Shown here: one piece after another, positions 5,178 through 50,031 of the stretch | Numbering within the stretch: the stretch's first letter is position 1 | How the letters are laid out: each line of letters begins with the position of its first letter | From: Verrucomicrobiota bacterium | GTDB lineage: Bacteria; Verrucomicrobiota; Verrucomicrobiia; Opitutales; Opitutaceae | Assembly (NCBI GenBank): GCA_026398135.1 | Contig: JAPLTN010000057.1 | Location: 1-50,031, forward strand | Direction: 5' to 3' | Length of the DNA stretch: 50,031 nucleotides | The notes under the pieces: model-generated | Told to the model about the DNA's origin: nothing | The model's input: the letters and a program-made list of their open reading frames with translations, nothing else | The model's database searches: none | Program-made: the position numbers and the translations under genes

Positions 5178-5220
5178 ATTCCAGCAAAGTGTAACCAATT
5201 TGGTTACACTTTGCTGGAAT
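5178..5220. repeat. 43-bp perfect palindrome, subtype 1 (copy A1)
   Basis: Two 21-nt arms are perfectly complementary around a single central T at 5199. The core is GTGTAACCAA/TTGGTTACAC and the outer arm is CCAGCAA/TTGCTGG. The last A of the right arm (5219) is also the first base of the ATG of the helix-turn-helix gene. No T tract follows on either strand, so it is unlikely to be a plain terminator. It belongs to a family with copies at 5665, 24860, 14554, 29284, 30042, 43651 and 43830. Confidence 0.95.
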
Positions 5221-5677
5221 GCCCTCAATAAAATCTCCTCCACCACACTTAAGTTCAGGTAGTGTTCAGCTTCCGCTTGGCCCCTCGCACAAACTTGCCC
5301 TCAGCCTCGTTGAGCTCCTTGGCGATGCCGCCATTGCCGCCGCCGCTATGGCCGCTCGGGCCACTTATGACGCCACTTTCCGCCGTAAGCGTGGCCCGCG
5401 TCGAAAAGTCCGTCCCGGCCTCGACACCCCGCTTTGGAATGCGTTAGCGCCCGAACTGCGTCGCGCGCTCCTGCCCTACGGTGCTAAAGCCCGTCTCGCC
5501 CGACACCTCGGTATCCCACGCCAACGCCTCCAAGACTACTTAAAGGCCGGCGCACGTGTGCCTGACGGCGAGATCACGCTGCGCCTTCTGCACTGGCTCG
5601 GTGAGATGCGCGCCGGCCGCGATCCTTCCGGCATCGTCCCGCCGGACCCTGATATATTTCCACCCGGAAAAGTGTAA
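5219..5677 (+). CDS. Small helix-turn-helix protein bracketed by palindromes
   Basis: A 152-residue ORF that I cannot assign to a named family. Residues 1-50 are variable and alanine-rich. Residues 54-67 form a basic arm (TFRRKRGPRRKVRPG). Residues 70-82 read TPLWNALAPELRR. Residues 86-110 (LPYGAKARLARHLGIPRQRL onward) fit a lambda-repressor/Xre-type helix-turn-helix: a helix, a glycine turn and a recognition helix. A further helix, LRLLHWLGEM, follows. The start overlaps the last base of palindrome A1 and the TAA stop (5675-5677) lies inside palindrome A2, so the gene fills the space between the two repeats. Inference: a DNA-binding protein that may recognise these palindromes. No good ribosome-binding site is visible. 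Confidence 0.7.
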   Translation: MPSIKSPPPHLSSGSVQLPLGPSHKLALSLVELLGDAAIAAAAMAARATYDATFRRKRGPRRKVRPGLDTPLWNALAPELRRALLPYGAKARLARHLGIPRQRLQDYLKAGARVPDGEITLRLLHWLGEMRAGRDPSGIVPPDPDIFPPGKV

Positions 5678-5698
5678 CCAATTTGGTTACACTTTCCG
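5665..5698. repeat. Near-perfect palindrome, subtype 1 (copy A2)
   Basis: Core GTGTAACCAA, central T at 5682, then TTGGTTACAC. Arms extend to CGGAAA and TTCCG with one extra A on the left. The outer arms differ from copy A1, while the 23-nt core is identical. It contains the stop codon of the helix-turn-helix gene and lies 85 bp upstream of the dihydrouridine synthase start. Confidence 0.93.
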
Positions 5699-14553: not shown

Positions 14554-14598
14554 GACCCCAGCAACAAGTAACCTATTAGGTTACTTGTTGCTGGGGTC
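14554..14598. repeat. 45-bp perfect palindrome, subtype 2 (copy B1)
   Basis: Two perfect 22-nt arms around a central T at 14576. The core is AAGTAACCTA/TAGGTTACTT with outer arm CCAGCAAC/GTTGCTGG. The outer CCAGCAA matches subtype 1 copy A1, which ties the two subtypes together. It lies between the broken YyaL gene and the Asp23-like gene. Confidence 0.95.
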
Positions 14599-24859: not shown

Positions 24860-24894
24860 AGGCAAAGTGTAACCAAATTGGTTACACTTTGCCT
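24860..24894. repeat. 35-bp perfect palindrome, subtype 1 (copy A3)
   Basis: Perfect 17-nt arms around a central A at 24877. The core GTGTAACCAA/TTGGTTACAC is as in copies A1 and A2, with outer arm AGGCAAA/TTTGCCT. It lies between deoA (stop 24914) and parE (start 24681), both on the minus strand, so it sits in a transcribed spacer or upstream of parE. Confidence 0.94.
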
Positions 24895-30041: not shown

Positions 30042-30075
30042 GGCAAAGTAACCTAATAGGTTACTTGATGCTGGG
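30042..30075. repeat. Palindrome, subtype 2 (copy B3)
   Basis: The core AAGTAACCTA, central A at 30056, TAGGTTACTT is perfect. The outer arms are imperfect (GGCA versus GATGCTGG). It lies between the convergent TPR and upp genes, 15 bp after the TPR stop codon. Confidence 0.92.
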
Positions 30076-31572: not shown

Positions 31573-31616
31573 AGCTAGTAAGCTGGTAGAGCTAGTAGGG
31601 CTAGTAGAGCTGGTAA
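31573..31616. repeat. Short tandem repeat of an 8-9 nt unit
   Basis: Five imperfect units of agctagtag/agctggtag fill the gap between the SIS-domain and deoxyribosyltransferase genes. A degenerate inverted copy occurs at about 47360-47388. Being tandem, it is prone to slippage. Confidence 0.75.
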
Positions 31617-31623
31617 GCGTGAG

Positions 31624-37805: not shown

Positions 37806-37841
37806 TGCTGGTTCGCGTTCAATTTAGACTGTCTCGGAAAC

Positions 37842-37902
37842 TGGCCGGGGACGGCCAACCCTGCACAAAGAAGGCTGCGGTAGAGTTGGCCGTCCCCGGC
37901 CA
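37842..37902. repeat. Inverted repeat, GGCCGGGGACGGCC family (copy 1)
   Basis: Perfect 18-nt arms, tggccggggacggccaac (37842-37859) and its complement (37885-37902), with a 25-nt spacer. A second copy with a longer spacer and arms carrying small changes occurs at 47170-47252. It lies in the 204-bp gap after the DUF481 gene; no T tract follows. Confidence 0.88.
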
Positions 37903-38009
37903 ATCAGGCTGAATTTTAAGGTGAATTGGAATAAGTGAGCGGCGTTTAAGTTTTCGTTATCTGCCCGCCATGGCTTCCGTGGCGGGCGTTTTTGTGTCAA
38001 GGGTGAGCG

Positions 38010-39355: not shown

Positions 39356-39398
39356 CTGCGGGCGTTATGTCAAAACCTTCAACAAAACGCACTTAATT

Positions 39399-39493
39399 TA
39401 ACGCAGAGTCACTAAGCCGCGAAGTTCGCAAAGGCTCAGAAAAGAATGATTTCTTTGTGCTCTCTGCGTCTTTGCGACTCTGCGTTAAAGTCT
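39399..39493. repeat. AACGCAGAG/CTCTGCGTT intergenic repeat (copy 1)
   Basis: TAACGCAGAGTC at 39399-39410 is matched by its complement GACTCTGCGTTA at 39476-39487, and internal CGCAAAG/CTTTGCG repeats lie between. A related copy is at 45940-46025, and both end TTAAAGTCTGA. This is a dispersed hairpin repeat. Confidence 0.8.
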
Positions 39494-39512
39494 GATGCGA
39501 GAGTCATTGGCC

Positions 39513-43650: not shown

Positions 43651-43686
43651 CCGGCAAAGTAACCTATTAGGTTACTTGATGCCGGG
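43651..43686. repeat. Palindrome, subtype 2 (copy B4)
   Basis: Core AAGTAACCTA, central T at 43666, TAGGTTACTT. Outer arms CCGGCA and TGCCGG pair with a two-base bulge on the right side. It lies 84 bp past the prmB stop. Confidence 0.92.
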
Positions 43687-43829: not shown

Positions 43830-43866
43830 CCGACAAAGTAACCTAATAGGTTACTTGAGGCTGGGG
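43830..43866. repeat. Palindrome, subtype 2 (copy B5)
   Basis: Core AAGTAACCTA, central A, TAGGTTACTT, followed by GAGGCTGGGGGC, which resembles the right flanks of B2, B3 and B4. It lies about 150 bp upstream of terC. Confidence 0.92.
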
Positions 43867-47598: not shown

Positions 47599-48330
47599 AT
47601 GAAAACAGCGTTGTCCCCCGCCGTCCGTCTCATGGCCGCCCTCGCGGCAGCTCATGGCCTGTCTGTGCCCTGCATGGCCCAGCCGATTGAAACCGCTGCG
47701 CTTGGAGCTGTGGTGATTAAATTGAAGGATAGTAATTTAGATACCAAAGTCACGATTCCGAGTTTGTTACCCGAGGCTTTTATAAGTGGCTCAATAGCCG
47801 TAATAAGCTCCAGTGCCCCAGGTGTTTATAATATTGGATTGGGTTCCGGTTTCCTGCCCCGTGATTATTACTCGGATTTTTATTATATAAAGTTTACTTC
47901 GGGTGCGAAAAAGGGGCTTTATTACACGATTACAGCCAACACGGAATCGCAATTTACTATTGATTCATCAGGGGACGACTTAACGAAACTAAAGTCAGGC
48001 GATACTTTTCGGGTTTGTAAATATTGGACATTAAACACTTTGTTTCCCTATGCTCTTGCTGGATCAGACCGCAATCCGCTCATCGCTTCGACTGGTCATC
48101 TCGGGCACCAACGCGGATCTCAGATTATCCTTCCGCCCATTAATTCGGGCGGAGTCAATTTAGCACCCGCTGAAATTTATTATTTTACCGATGCTGGCTG
48201 GGTTCAATCTATAAAGGGAACTCCAGTATCAAACGACGTCATTGTGTATCCGGATAGTTATCTAATAGCCCGTCAACCGCCCAACGTAACATCCGAAATC
48301 AAGATGTGTATAACTGGGCATGTGTTTTAA
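47599..48330 (+). CDS. Exported beta-rich protein, TIGR02597-like (first)
   Basis: A 243-residue protein with a signal peptide (1-28, VRLMAALAAAHGLSVPCMA). The mature part has IETAALGAVVIKLKDSNLDT and then short strands with FTSGAKKGLYYTITANTESQ, FPYALAGSDRNPLIASTG and PAEIYYFTDAGWVQSIKG. The pattern, and the paired gene downstream, resemble the verrucomicrobial TIGR02597 repeat family of unknown function. Base composition is clearly lower in GC than upstream DNA, with A/T-rich third positions. ATG 47599 begins the signal peptide; an in-frame start at 47518 is less likely. Confidence 0.72.
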   Translation: MKTALSPAVRLMAALAAAHGLSVPCMAQPIETAALGAVVIKLKDSNLDTKVTIPSLLPEAFISGSIAVISSSAPGVYNIGLGSGFLPRDYYSDFYYIKFTSGAKKGLYYTITANTESQFTIDSSGDDLTKLKSGDTFRVCKYWTLNTLFPYALAGSDRNPLIASTGHLGHQRGSQIILPPINSGGVNLAPAEIYYFTDAGWVQSIKGTPVSNDVIVYPDSYLIARQPPNVTSEIKMCITGHVF

Positions 48331-48352
48331 TCCCTGTAGAAAAGTTTACTTT

Positions 48353-49384
48353 ATGAGAACTAAATTAACCTCGGCGATTCAATTTACGGCCGCACTTGTT
48401 ACCGGTTTTGGATTTATTAGTTTCTCCTCCGCCCAAACCGTGGCAACGCATCCAGTGGGAGCGGTGAGTAAGACTTTGCCGACAGGTTATTCAATGGTTG
48501 GCCTTACTTTACTGAATTCGTCGTTGTATTCAGGTGCTGTGACGCTTAATGATTCTAGTTCCGTCACCTTATCTGGTTCTAACAATTTTGGTCTTATATT
48601 AAGTGGAACAGGTATGTATTACTTAGAGGTGGTGAGCGGTCCCTTGGAGGGTGAGCGGTTTGATGTTAATACATCCGCAACAATAGCATCTGCTAATTCT
48701 GTCGTTACGATTAACCCCGCTTCTCAGAACAATACTGTAACACTTACCTCTAACGCTCTGGCATCGTGTAATGTAGTGCTTCGTTCTCACATTACACTTA
48801 ATAGTTTGTCGTCATGGATTACACCTGCGCTGACAGGAAATAACAGTTCTTCTAGTGCTGATCAGATTTTGATTTTTAACAAAGCACTAAATGCATTTGA
48901 TACTTATTTTTTAAGAGCTGACAACGTTACTTGGAGAAAAATCGGTGTGGCCGACTCTGTTGGTGCAAGTACAGTAATCCCTCCTGGGGTTGGGATTTTC
49001 ATACGTAAAGTATCTACTTCTGCTACTTTAACACAAGTGGGTGCTATTCGTGTTAACGATTTTGCAATGCCGCTGAAGGCGGGTTTATCTCTTTTAGCGC
49101 CCGGTTATCCTATACCAAATTCTCCAACTTCTTTGGGTGCAAATCTTGTAAATGGATGGTTCGGTAGCAATTCATCTGGAGCAGCAGACCAAATTATAAC
49201 CTTCAACCCGAGTGGAAATAGCTACATTACTTATTTCCTGAGGTCTGATGGTGCAACCTGGAGACAGGTTGGATTAGTTGATGATTTTAAGTCAGTTAAC
49301 GTTATTGGCCATGATTCTGCGTTCTGGCTTAGAAAAGCTACCGCTGATTTAAATTATATTTTAGTTCGTCCATTTACTTTGTAA
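48353..49384 (+). CDS. Exported beta-rich protein, TIGR02597-like (second)
   Basis: A 343-residue protein with a signal peptide (1-27, AALVTGFGFISFSSAQ). The mature start TVATHPVGAVSKTLPTGYSM is like the opening of TIGR02597-type proteins. Two internal repeats occur: SSSADQILIFNKALNAFDTY with FLRADNVTWRKIGVAD, and SGAADQIITFNPSGNSYITY with FLRSDGATWRQVGLVDD. It shares the AT-rich composition of its neighbours and follows the first homologue by 22 bp. Likely secreted or surface bound; function unknown. Confidence 0.75.
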   Translation: MRTKLTSAIQFTAALVTGFGFISFSSAQTVATHPVGAVSKTLPTGYSMVGLTLLNSSLYSGAVTLNDSSSVTLSGSNNFGLILSGTGMYYLEVVSGPLEGERFDVNTSATIASANSVVTINPASQNNTVTLTSNALASCNVVLRSHITLNSLSSWITPALTGNNSSSSADQILIFNKALNAFDTYFLRADNVTWRKIGVADSVGASTVIPPGVGIFIRKVSTSATLTQVGAIRVNDFAMPLKAGLSLLAPGYPIPNSPTSLGANLVNGWFGSNSSGAADQIITFNPSGNSYITYFLRSDGATWRQVGLVDDFKSVNVIGHDSAFWLRKATADLNYILVRPFTL

Positions 49385-49406
49385 TTAATCATACTAATTA
49401 AATTCC

Positions 49407-49931
49407 ATGAAAAAAACATTAGCTGCTTCTTTAGCTCTACTAACTTGCAGTGCCGCTAGCGCTATAGATAGAGTTACTTTTGAGGATTTTGACTATACGA
49501 TTGTTGGTAACGTAAATGTTACCGGCTCTAATCTTTTAGCCTCGTTCTGGGGTACTTATTCTAATGGATCGTTTACTGTTCTCACTGGATCCAACAATGG
49601 ATATTTTGACCTAGCGGGTGATGATGCCGTTGTAAATTATTCCGCCACTGATAATCTTTCTGTTGCTGATGGAGCTTTACTAGCTCTTGGTATATTTGAT
49701 ATTTCCAATGGTTCACTCTACTCAGCTATTACTGGTTCGACCAAGGGAGTTATACTTACAGATTCCACATGGGTAGCTCCCGCGTTTTCCACTACTGCTG
49801 GCCCCTCTTTGGTTGGTTTCACAAATACTACCGTGGCACAAGTTGGTGGTTACTCACGCGTTGGTACTATTGAAACAATTACTTTAGTCTGGTTCTTCCG
49901 GTTTTCTAGTGGGCAAGGGAGTTGCAGCTAG
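49407..49931 (+). pseudogene. Exported protein gene truncated by an ISL3-like element
   Basis: A 174-residue ORF with a signal peptide (MKKTLAASLALLTCSAASA) and a serine/threonine/glycine-rich beta region (VTFEDFDYTIVGNVNVTGSN, GSNNGYFDLAGDDAVV). It matches the style of verrucomicrobial exported proteins that normally end in a PEP-CTERM anchor. After residue 162 (IETITLVW) the sequence turns GC-rich and changes into the end of an insertion sequence (from 49891), so the natural C-terminus is missing and the last 12 residues come from the element. The lost PEP-CTERM tail is inferred, not seen. Confidence 0.7.
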
Positions 49932-50031
49932 GGAGAAGAAGTCATGACGGAACAAGAAGCGAAGGCGGCGGTGGCAGCGCATTACGGGATGCTGTTGGGC
50001 ATCGCGTCCCCGTGGGTGGTGAAGGAGGCGA
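49891..50031 (+). mobile_element. Left end of an ISL3-like insertion sequence (partial)
   Basis: A terminal-repeat-like start (ggttcttccggttttctagt, 49891-49910), a leader with gggagaagaa, then a transposase start. The abrupt rise in GC against the AT-rich host gene marks the junction. The right end and target duplication lie outside the window. Confidence 0.65.
49944..50031 (+). CDS. ISL3-like transposase, N-terminal part (partial)
   Basis: ATG 49944, preceded by GGGAGAAGAA at good distance, opens a frame that reads MTEQEAKAAVAAHYGMLLGI and then ASPWVVKEA before running off the window. The helix followed by PW-V at about residue 23 is like the N-terminal zinc-finger-preceding region of ISL3-family transposases. 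The zinc finger and DDE domains are not in view, so the family call is tentative. Confidence 0.6.
   Translation, partial: MTEQEAKAAVAAHYGMLLGIASPWVVKEA

Follow-up and report, generated by a model that had tools for sequence, protein, structure and literature searches.

The stretch of DNA analysed here (50,031 nucleotides, called the window) carries a helix-turn-helix (HTH) gene that is framed by two palindromes of a dispersed family. The explanation that we regard as probable is a system of a repeat and its binding protein, which has the layout of a REPtron with an HTH protein in the place of the transposase; of this system, the window would hold the gene for the protein and three sites out of about 21. 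The palindromes of related species differ in step with the gene, which suggests that the repeat family belongs with its own binding protein rather than with a transposase. Comparison of genomes revealed the bracketing of homologous genes, covariation of core and protein, copy numbers that follow the protein, an insertion in a tatD gene, different cores at the same site in different species, and paired changes in the arms of one core type (core1). From this pattern we infer binding by the protein, autoregulation, insertion via a hairpin or a template switch, and retention of the sites by protein binding.

The gene has 152 codons, is located on the forward strand at 5219-5677, exactly between two palindromes with an identical inner sequence of 27 nt, and encodes a Cro/XRE-like HTH protein. 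The upstream palindrome (5178-5220) is perfect over 43 bp, with arms of 21 bp and a centre of 1 bp, and contains the core GTGTAACCAA-T-TTGGTTACAC; it overlaps the start codon ATG (5219-5221) by two bases, the A and the T. The downstream palindrome (5669-5695) is perfect over 27 bp, with arms of 13 bp, has the same core and carries a slipped CGG/CCG extension in its flank. The stop codon TAA (5675-5677) is contributed by the GTGTAACC of the downstream core. A sequence-only reading of this DNA had already described a stop inside the second palindrome and outer arms that differ between the two copies, and both descriptions were confirmed. It had also placed the start on the last base of the upstream palindrome and given the identical core as 23 nt; the overlap and the identity stand, with two bases used instead of one and a core that is a little longer.

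The claim of a dispersed family was borne out as well. Three exact copies of the 21-mer form of core1 are present in the window (5189, 5672 and 24867), compared to none in 100 shuffled versions. The genome assembly to which the window belongs (G000, 3.39 Mb) contains 20 exact copies and one copy with one mismatch when up to two mismatches are allowed, and 21 exact copies of a 17-mer form, one of them at a contig start. The pattern read backward served as a control and was absent from G000 for both forms. The perfect palindromes around the 20 exact copies are between 21 and 57 bp long. A second HTH paralogue of G000, on contig C19, is bracketed by a different core (core2, AGTAACCYA-N-TRGGTTACT), which occurs at 55 places in this assembly with up to two mismatches. 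Solo copies of both types are found in the window. The core1 copy at 24860-24894 is a perfect palindrome of 35 bp, and the corresponding spot of the closest genome, G003, has a core2 palindrome. The core2 palindrome AGTAACCTATTAGGTTACT (14567-14585) is present at the same place in G003 with one paired arm change and one mismatch in the centre. Two further core2 palindromes have an identical core in G003, i.e., those at 30047-30065, for which G007 has merely a degenerate relative nearby, and at 43837-43855. The last one (43658-43676) is core2 also in G003, and the syntenic gap of G007, with poorly aligned flanks, contains core1. Clusters in which neighbouring palindromes are 46 or 56 bp apart were seen in two genera (G000:C73:45281-45403, and G034:C1 at 1826219, 2027722 and 5271522). 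Three further repeat families, in which the studied cores are absent, are present in the window at 31573-31618, 37812-37935 and 39371-39510; the first matches many places in G007, the other two many places in G003. The G+C content drops to 42.5% at 48001-50000, compared to 58-68% elsewhere in the window, and this part is possibly foreign DNA at the contig end.

The assignment of the protein as an HTH protein, proposed already from the sequence alone, is supported by weak Pfam matches to YdaS and HTH_3 and by the AlphaFold model, which is helical in its C-terminal part. The only Pfam match of the window protein is YdaS (15.9 bits, cut-off 30), and an identity as a YdaS toxin was rejected because this match is below the cut-off. 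Among 22 family members searched with E-values up to 0.1, YdaS was matched by all 22, mostly weakly, and HTH_3 by 14. The PHROGs matched are transcriptional regulators, the commonest one in 11 of the 22 members. NCBIfam models of HTH antitoxins were matched by a few members (HigA by four, Y4mF by two) and by the window protein not at all at an E-value of 0.01; given the HigA matches, the role of the family may be tied to a toxin partner. The AlphaFold model consists of helices only, a long one at the N-terminus (residues 24-54) and then four shorter ones, with a mean pLDDT of 67 and values of 74-83 in the ten-residue blocks from 71 to 130. A fold search gave no match with an E-value of 0.001 or below, and several of the weak matches are XRE-type proteins; a profile search of solved structures yielded double-homeobox and Cro-like proteins with weak E-values. 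Neither the 17 Pfam families listed for the 22 members nor the model of the window protein revealed a catalytic domain, and Y1_Tnp is not among these 17 families. Homologues were found in 19 of the 57 genomes searched, including the own genome, and at 21 further loci in named public genomes of Opitutaceae, Opitutae, Opitutia and Verrucomicrobia/Verrucomicrobiota, with the exception of one titled Akkermansia, the contig of which is as long as a contig of G006. A viral origin was also considered and dropped, as none of 73 pattern-matching stretches in viral contigs encodes a relative.

Bracketing is not restricted to the window gene. Matching palindromes on both sides, i.e., with half-sites that agree in at least seven of nine positions, were found at 22 of 39 homologue loci of Opitutaceae and related Verrucomicrobiota, which are not independent of each other, compared to none of 3,150 random control positions in the same loci. 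Eight of the 21 public loci were left out of this count because their contigs have the same lengths as those of loci already included, and locus L023, which has an internal stop, was kept. At 7 of 26 loci the TAA of the gene is the TAA of a GTAACC in the downstream core. The bracketing of the second paralogue and of many homologues, with a different core for each protein lineage, supports the sequence-only reading, which had asked whether paralogues are bracketed as well. The same reading had named homologues that lack flanking palindromes as evidence against it, and 17 of the 39 loci are indeed without matching sites on both sides: nine have a palindrome upstream only, three downstream only (two of these are cut upstream by the contig end), two have palindromes that do not match, and three have none. 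A palindrome at the start of the gene itself is thus present at 31 loci (the 22 matching pairs and the nine upstream only), as judged by position only. In addition, the four loci of a more distant lineage with the core GTCAATCA have a family site upstream only. This last arrangement would be in accord with the view that the protein is a conventional autoregulated transcription factor and that the solo palindromes are operators of host genes that change under selection on regulation. We consider this explanation unlikely; the matching downstream site at 22 loci is one of several observations against it, and further evidence on both of its sides is given below.

The sequence-only reading had proposed a self-contained cassette, namely a mobile element, an autoregulated repressor or the source of the solo copies nearby. 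Empty sites in relatives, which it had asked about, exist insofar as the cassette is present or absent at one locus between species. In G003, whose long matches to the window are mostly 82-94% identical, the cassette is missing between the two neighbours, which by their motifs are a dcc-like gene and dusB, and the sole homologue found in this genome is of the core2 type. A conserved chromosomal position, named in advance as a counterargument, was found in part: the same neighbour, dusB, is present in five genomes of the genus, and therefore the cassette is not freely mobile. A mobile cassette is thus too strong a description, and a repressor alone is too small a one. Two features could not be seen from the sequence alone: solo copies also lie in frame in genes, and at the same sites the core differs between species together with the resident protein. 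In the G008 assembly two different family HTH genes (on C35 and C394) are each located beside a dusB match, and a mixture of strains in this assembly is possible.

Protein lineages differ in their cores, and the lineage-specific versions are GTAACCAA, GTAACCYA, GTCACCTA, GTCACGTA, GTAACGTA, TTTCACGTA, GTCAACTA, GTCATCTA, ATGTTCGTA and GTCAATCA. In the presumed recognition helix, the residue that follows QR(L/I/V) covaries with the core, without a strict correspondence, in a comparison that takes the members as they stand and still includes their shared ancestry. Q is found with CCAA, T with CCYA or CCCA, H with CACCTA, and Y with CAATCA; the exceptions are H, which also occurs with TTTCACGTA and GTCAACTA, and N, which occurs with both CACGTA and CCAA. 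That the core goes with the residue of the recognition helix would be expected for operators of a transcription factor, too.

The number of copies follows the resident protein. At least five copies of the core1 17-mer are present in all five genomes of the genus in which a core1-type protein was counted (G000, 21 copies; G007, 23; G008, 15; G006, 14; G005, 5) and in none of the ten others (Fisher p 0.0003, with a threshold and a grouping that were picked after inspection of the data). The protein of G008 was included with 55% identity, and its own upstream sites are of the mixed type GTMACCAA. Some genomes in which no core1-type protein was found contain a few copies (G004, 4; G003, 2; G001, 1), and the backward form of the 17-mer had no hits. 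A prediction that was fixed before counting concerned GTCAATCA-N-TGATTGAC, which had been read upstream of the four more distant homologues. It was found 27 times in G002, 11 times in G004, 8 times in G001 and 3 times in G010, and not at all in the other 11 genomes of the genus or with the backward control. The Fisher p of 0.0007 is overstated because one copy per genome is the source site, beyond which 26, 10, 7 and 2 copies remain. Low counts despite a matching protein are found for core1 in G005 and for GTCAATCA in G010. In the wider set of 57 genomes, at least five copies of a general pattern were found in 14 of the 19 genomes with a homologue, compared to 2 of the 38 without (G018 and G032, with 5 and 6 copies), a comparison for which threshold and grouping were likewise chosen after inspection. 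Overall, the general pattern was matched in 25 of the 57 genomes, with up to 46 copies in one, and the backward control hit five genomes once each.

Dispersed landmark sites are known for chromosome-organising proteins, e.g., MatP with matS, SlmA and Noc, and a function of this kind would agree with tens of sites per genome, within and between genes, and with one dedicated candidate binding protein. It is nevertheless very unlikely, since the presence of the sites varies inside one genus (7 of 15 genomes are devoid of the core1 17-mer), one and the same genome can contain two dialects, and insertion can create a new site, as described next for TatD.

Five reading frames of G000 run through core1 copies; they encode CysJ, YjeF/NAD(P)H-hydrate dehydratase, a TatD-type nuclease, UvrA, with two exact copies and one variant, and a GH20-like protein with two copies. 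Copies of GTCAATCA are located in frames that match Hel308-like helicases (G004 and G010), an 8-oxoguanine glycosylase (G001), and an ATP-dependent DNA ligase and PabB/TrpE (both G002). Several of the genes with such copies function in DNA repair or act on nucleic acids (UvrA, TatD, the Hel308-like helicases, the DNA ligase and the glycosylase), and the same tendency has been reported for GTAG and CGTC REPs (PMC3733652). Insertion of a palindrome is clear at TatD only. The distance between two motifs of this protein corresponds to 78 nt in 9 of the 13 genomes of the genus that were measured, G014 and G012 having been left out as not measurable by the script. The distances in the four genomes with a palindrome are 129 nt (G000), 141 nt (G003), 132 nt (G007) and 120 nt (G008, with an imperfect palindrome), all multiples of three, so that the insertions amount to 42-63 nt. 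Alignments of corresponding sites, many of which have flanks with further indels, did not reveal a clean empty site with a defined target or a target duplication.

Palindromes are less often intragenic than random positions (17 of 50 compared to 746 of 960), and thus intergenic gaps are preferred, with 33 of 50 outside genes compared to 214 of 960. These figures are rough, as the crude gene caller missed the gene around the TatD copy and counted the downstream copy of the cassette as intragenic in an overlong frame. The preference for non-genic DNA would be in accord with host-gene operators, and so would the sites in yjeF and cysJ, which are common to G000 and the distant G006 and have thus kept their positions over a long divergence. 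The good share of intragenic copies, several of them in named genes, and the insertions of 42-63 nt in TatD would not be expected of operators.

Single sites have different cores in different species. For 16 core1 sites of G000 the corresponding place in G003, which has the core2-type protein, was inspected. Core2 was found at nine of them (C4a, C31, CysJ, YjeF, C57b, TatD, UvrA, C102a and 24867 of the window), core1 at one (C4b, at a contig end), and nothing at six (C14, C58, C78, the two GH20 sites and the cassette). C102b and the contig-end copy C91 were left out, and the groups C57b, UvrA and cassette were counted as one site each. The genomes compared are drafts and most of them are incomplete; G003 is 92% complete with 7% contamination. 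Core2 sites are kept between G000 and G003 at 11 of the 12 places compared (13 were queried). G007 has core1 at C14, C31, C57b, C58, TatD, C78, C102a, C102b, both GH20 sites and the cassette, and none at C4a. Core1 is therefore probably the older state at TatD, C31, C57b and C102a, and G003 would be the genome that has changed. Even three versions occur at one codon position of yjeF: core1 in G000 and G006, core2 in G003, and GTCAATCA in G004. G007 was dropped as a further genome with this site, since homology is lacking in its left flank. The copies in tatD share their outer arms (CCCCCCGGC and GCCGGG), and the inner 13 bp differ on both sides; at the other sites the arms differ as well. Core1 and core2 are only a few bases apart, and some of the switching could be ordinary point mutation.

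The arms outside of the core were compared by dealing out the right arms among the copies. For core1 of G000, pairing exceeds that of the shuffled sets at seven of the eight positions 12-19 from the centre (12-14 and 16-19; p 0.000-0.028 per position, uncorrected), and position 15 hardly varies. A similar, weaker excess was found in G007; the test included 20 of 21 core1 copies of G000 and 21 of 23 of G007, the rest being at or near contig ends. No excess pairing was present in the arms of 15 core2 copies (of the 55 places), and thus a long hairpin is not general. Paired arms that extend beyond the half-sites of core1 are not expected for operators. Orthologous sites have undergone paired changes as well, for instance the site at 14567 of the window compared to G003, and C102a between G000 and G007, and at one site (L059) the asymmetric centre of core2 is turned round between G000 and G003. 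Paired arm changes and a turned centre would suit template switching based on a hairpin. The perfect arms are short at YjeF and CysJ, the two sites in common with the distant G006 (11 and 13 bp), compared to 19 bp at TatD, 22 and 24 bp at the GH20 sites and 10 bp in the UvrA group, and it would fit these values, from sites too few for statistical support, that arms matter for the arrival of a copy and the core for its staying. A function as intrinsic terminator was rejected: the core1 copies examined in G000 and G007 have no TTTTT at a distance of 18-40 bases from the centre in either direction.

A REPtron consists of a gene for a RAYT tyrosine transposase flanked by REPs, together with dispersed REPs or REPINs (PMC3733652, PMC8049555, PMC2817692). 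REPs are at times intragenic and can supply a stop codon, and different REPs have been described near the same recB site in two Xanthomonas species (PMC3733652). The present system shares a gene flanked by a dispersed short palindrome, a repeat-specific gene for each family, intragenic copies, a stop codon supplied by the repeat, and different repeats at about the same site between species. The parallel to REP-associated elements, drawn loosely in the sequence-only reading, is thus apt in anatomy. Unlike in a REPtron, the gene encodes a Cro/XRE-like HTH protein instead of a Y1 HUH transposase, and the palindromes are symmetric with a centre of one base, lack the GTAG/CGTC tag, and have a core that tracks the HTH lineage. 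Therefore, we regard the system as a REPtron in layout and do not file it as one, since transposase and tag are lacking and the eight Y1 loci of G000, G003 and G007 are free of the cores.

It could be argued that the palindromes are ordinary REP-type elements that are moved by a RAYT encoded elsewhere, two of which merely function as operators of the HTH gene. Y1 transposases (PF01797, to which the RAYTs belong) are indeed encoded in 14 of the 15 genomes of the genus, and Opitutus terrae has been reported to be richest in intragenic GTAG REPs, which include both of its uvrA genes (PMC3733652). However, Y1 matches were also obtained in G009, G011 and G014, where neither a homologue nor palindromes were seen, and no core was found within the 1.6-2.9 kb examined around eight Y1 loci of G000, G003 and G007. 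The tags are not enriched either: GTAG is near 2 and CGTC near 3 of 39 core1 copies, compared to backgrounds of 16% and 33%, and GTGG, the variant of O. terrae, is near 16 of 39, compared to 37%. Furthermore, a RAYT would not explain that the core sequence tracks the lineage of the HTH protein, and altogether this explanation is rather improbable. Three Y1 transposase matches of equal score and with an equal spacing of 836 bp in G010 (C1:723729-725730) look like a recent tandem triplication.

Other known systems share single features with the repeat and its candidate binding protein. XRE/Cro regulators like Aca1 and the C proteins that control restriction systems have palindromic operators upstream of their own genes. 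The HTH fold, for which all matches are weak with E-values above 0.001, and the upstream palindrome are in common with them; unlike there, a site is also present downstream, and the repeat family extends over the genome and into genes. DNA uptake sequences, which are linked to the ComP receptor, are likewise short and dispersed, have dialects and are partly intragenic. In the Neisseriaceae these dialects are species-specific, partly in genes, present in thousands of copies and serve the uptake of outside DNA (PMC3630211), in contrast to the 21 core1 copies and 55 core2 places found here, and they are not the sites of a bracketed HTH gene. In-frame insertion in coding genes, as at TatD, with frames also running through the copies in CysJ, YjeF, UvrA and GH20, is reminiscent of the Rickettsia palindromic elements (RPEs), which are 105-146 bp long, lie in part in frame in protein genes, and for which no mobilising factor has been shown (PMC2229807). 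The units found here are shorter, about 40-60 bp, and have a proposed partner gene, which is not named for RPEs in the cited parts of that report (PMC2229807); the shorter RPE-4 and RPE-6 have been named as CGTC REPs (PMC3733652). Searches of open PubMed Central papers, judged by title and the beginning of the abstract, turned up no account of an HTH gene that lies between copies of its own dispersed palindrome.

Taken as a system of a repeat and its binding protein, the data would be explained as follows. The Cro/XRE-like HTH protein would bind as a dimer, with the halves of the palindrome as half-sites. The upstream site over the start codon would allow autoregulation, and the downstream site supplies the stop codon. 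Other copies would originate from the rare insertion of palindromic units of about 40-60 bp, by a hairpin or template-switch route, either into intergenic DNA or, with the frame preserved, into tolerant regions of a gene. Their inner 17-21 bp would be kept in the form that is recognised by the resident protein. When this protein is changed or lost, the sites would decay or adopt the spelling of the remaining paralogue, and such switching would occur by stepwise mutation under selection for binding or by copying between palindromes.

How short palindromic repeats spread and persist without a known transposase has been left open for RPEs and CGTC REPs (PMC2229807, PMC3733652). The repeat family described here has a single candidate partner gene, in whose product no catalytic domain was found, and it offers many natural pairs of protein and core. 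Because the partner gene can be identified and a sister species lacks one of the partners, the dependence of a repeat family on a DNA-binding protein is directly testable, and the natural pairs of protein and site constitute a set for a recognition code of this HTH family. A more far-reaching idea, which we put forward tentatively and consider possible rather than likely, is a class of dispersed repeats that can do without a transposase of its own. The HTH protein would determine at which places, and with which sequence, its palindromes are retained; it would keep copies close to each other or stall replication at them, and one copy would thereby be rewritten from another. If this were true, new proteins would overwrite the palindromes of lost proteins in place, genome-wide and even in housekeeping genes.
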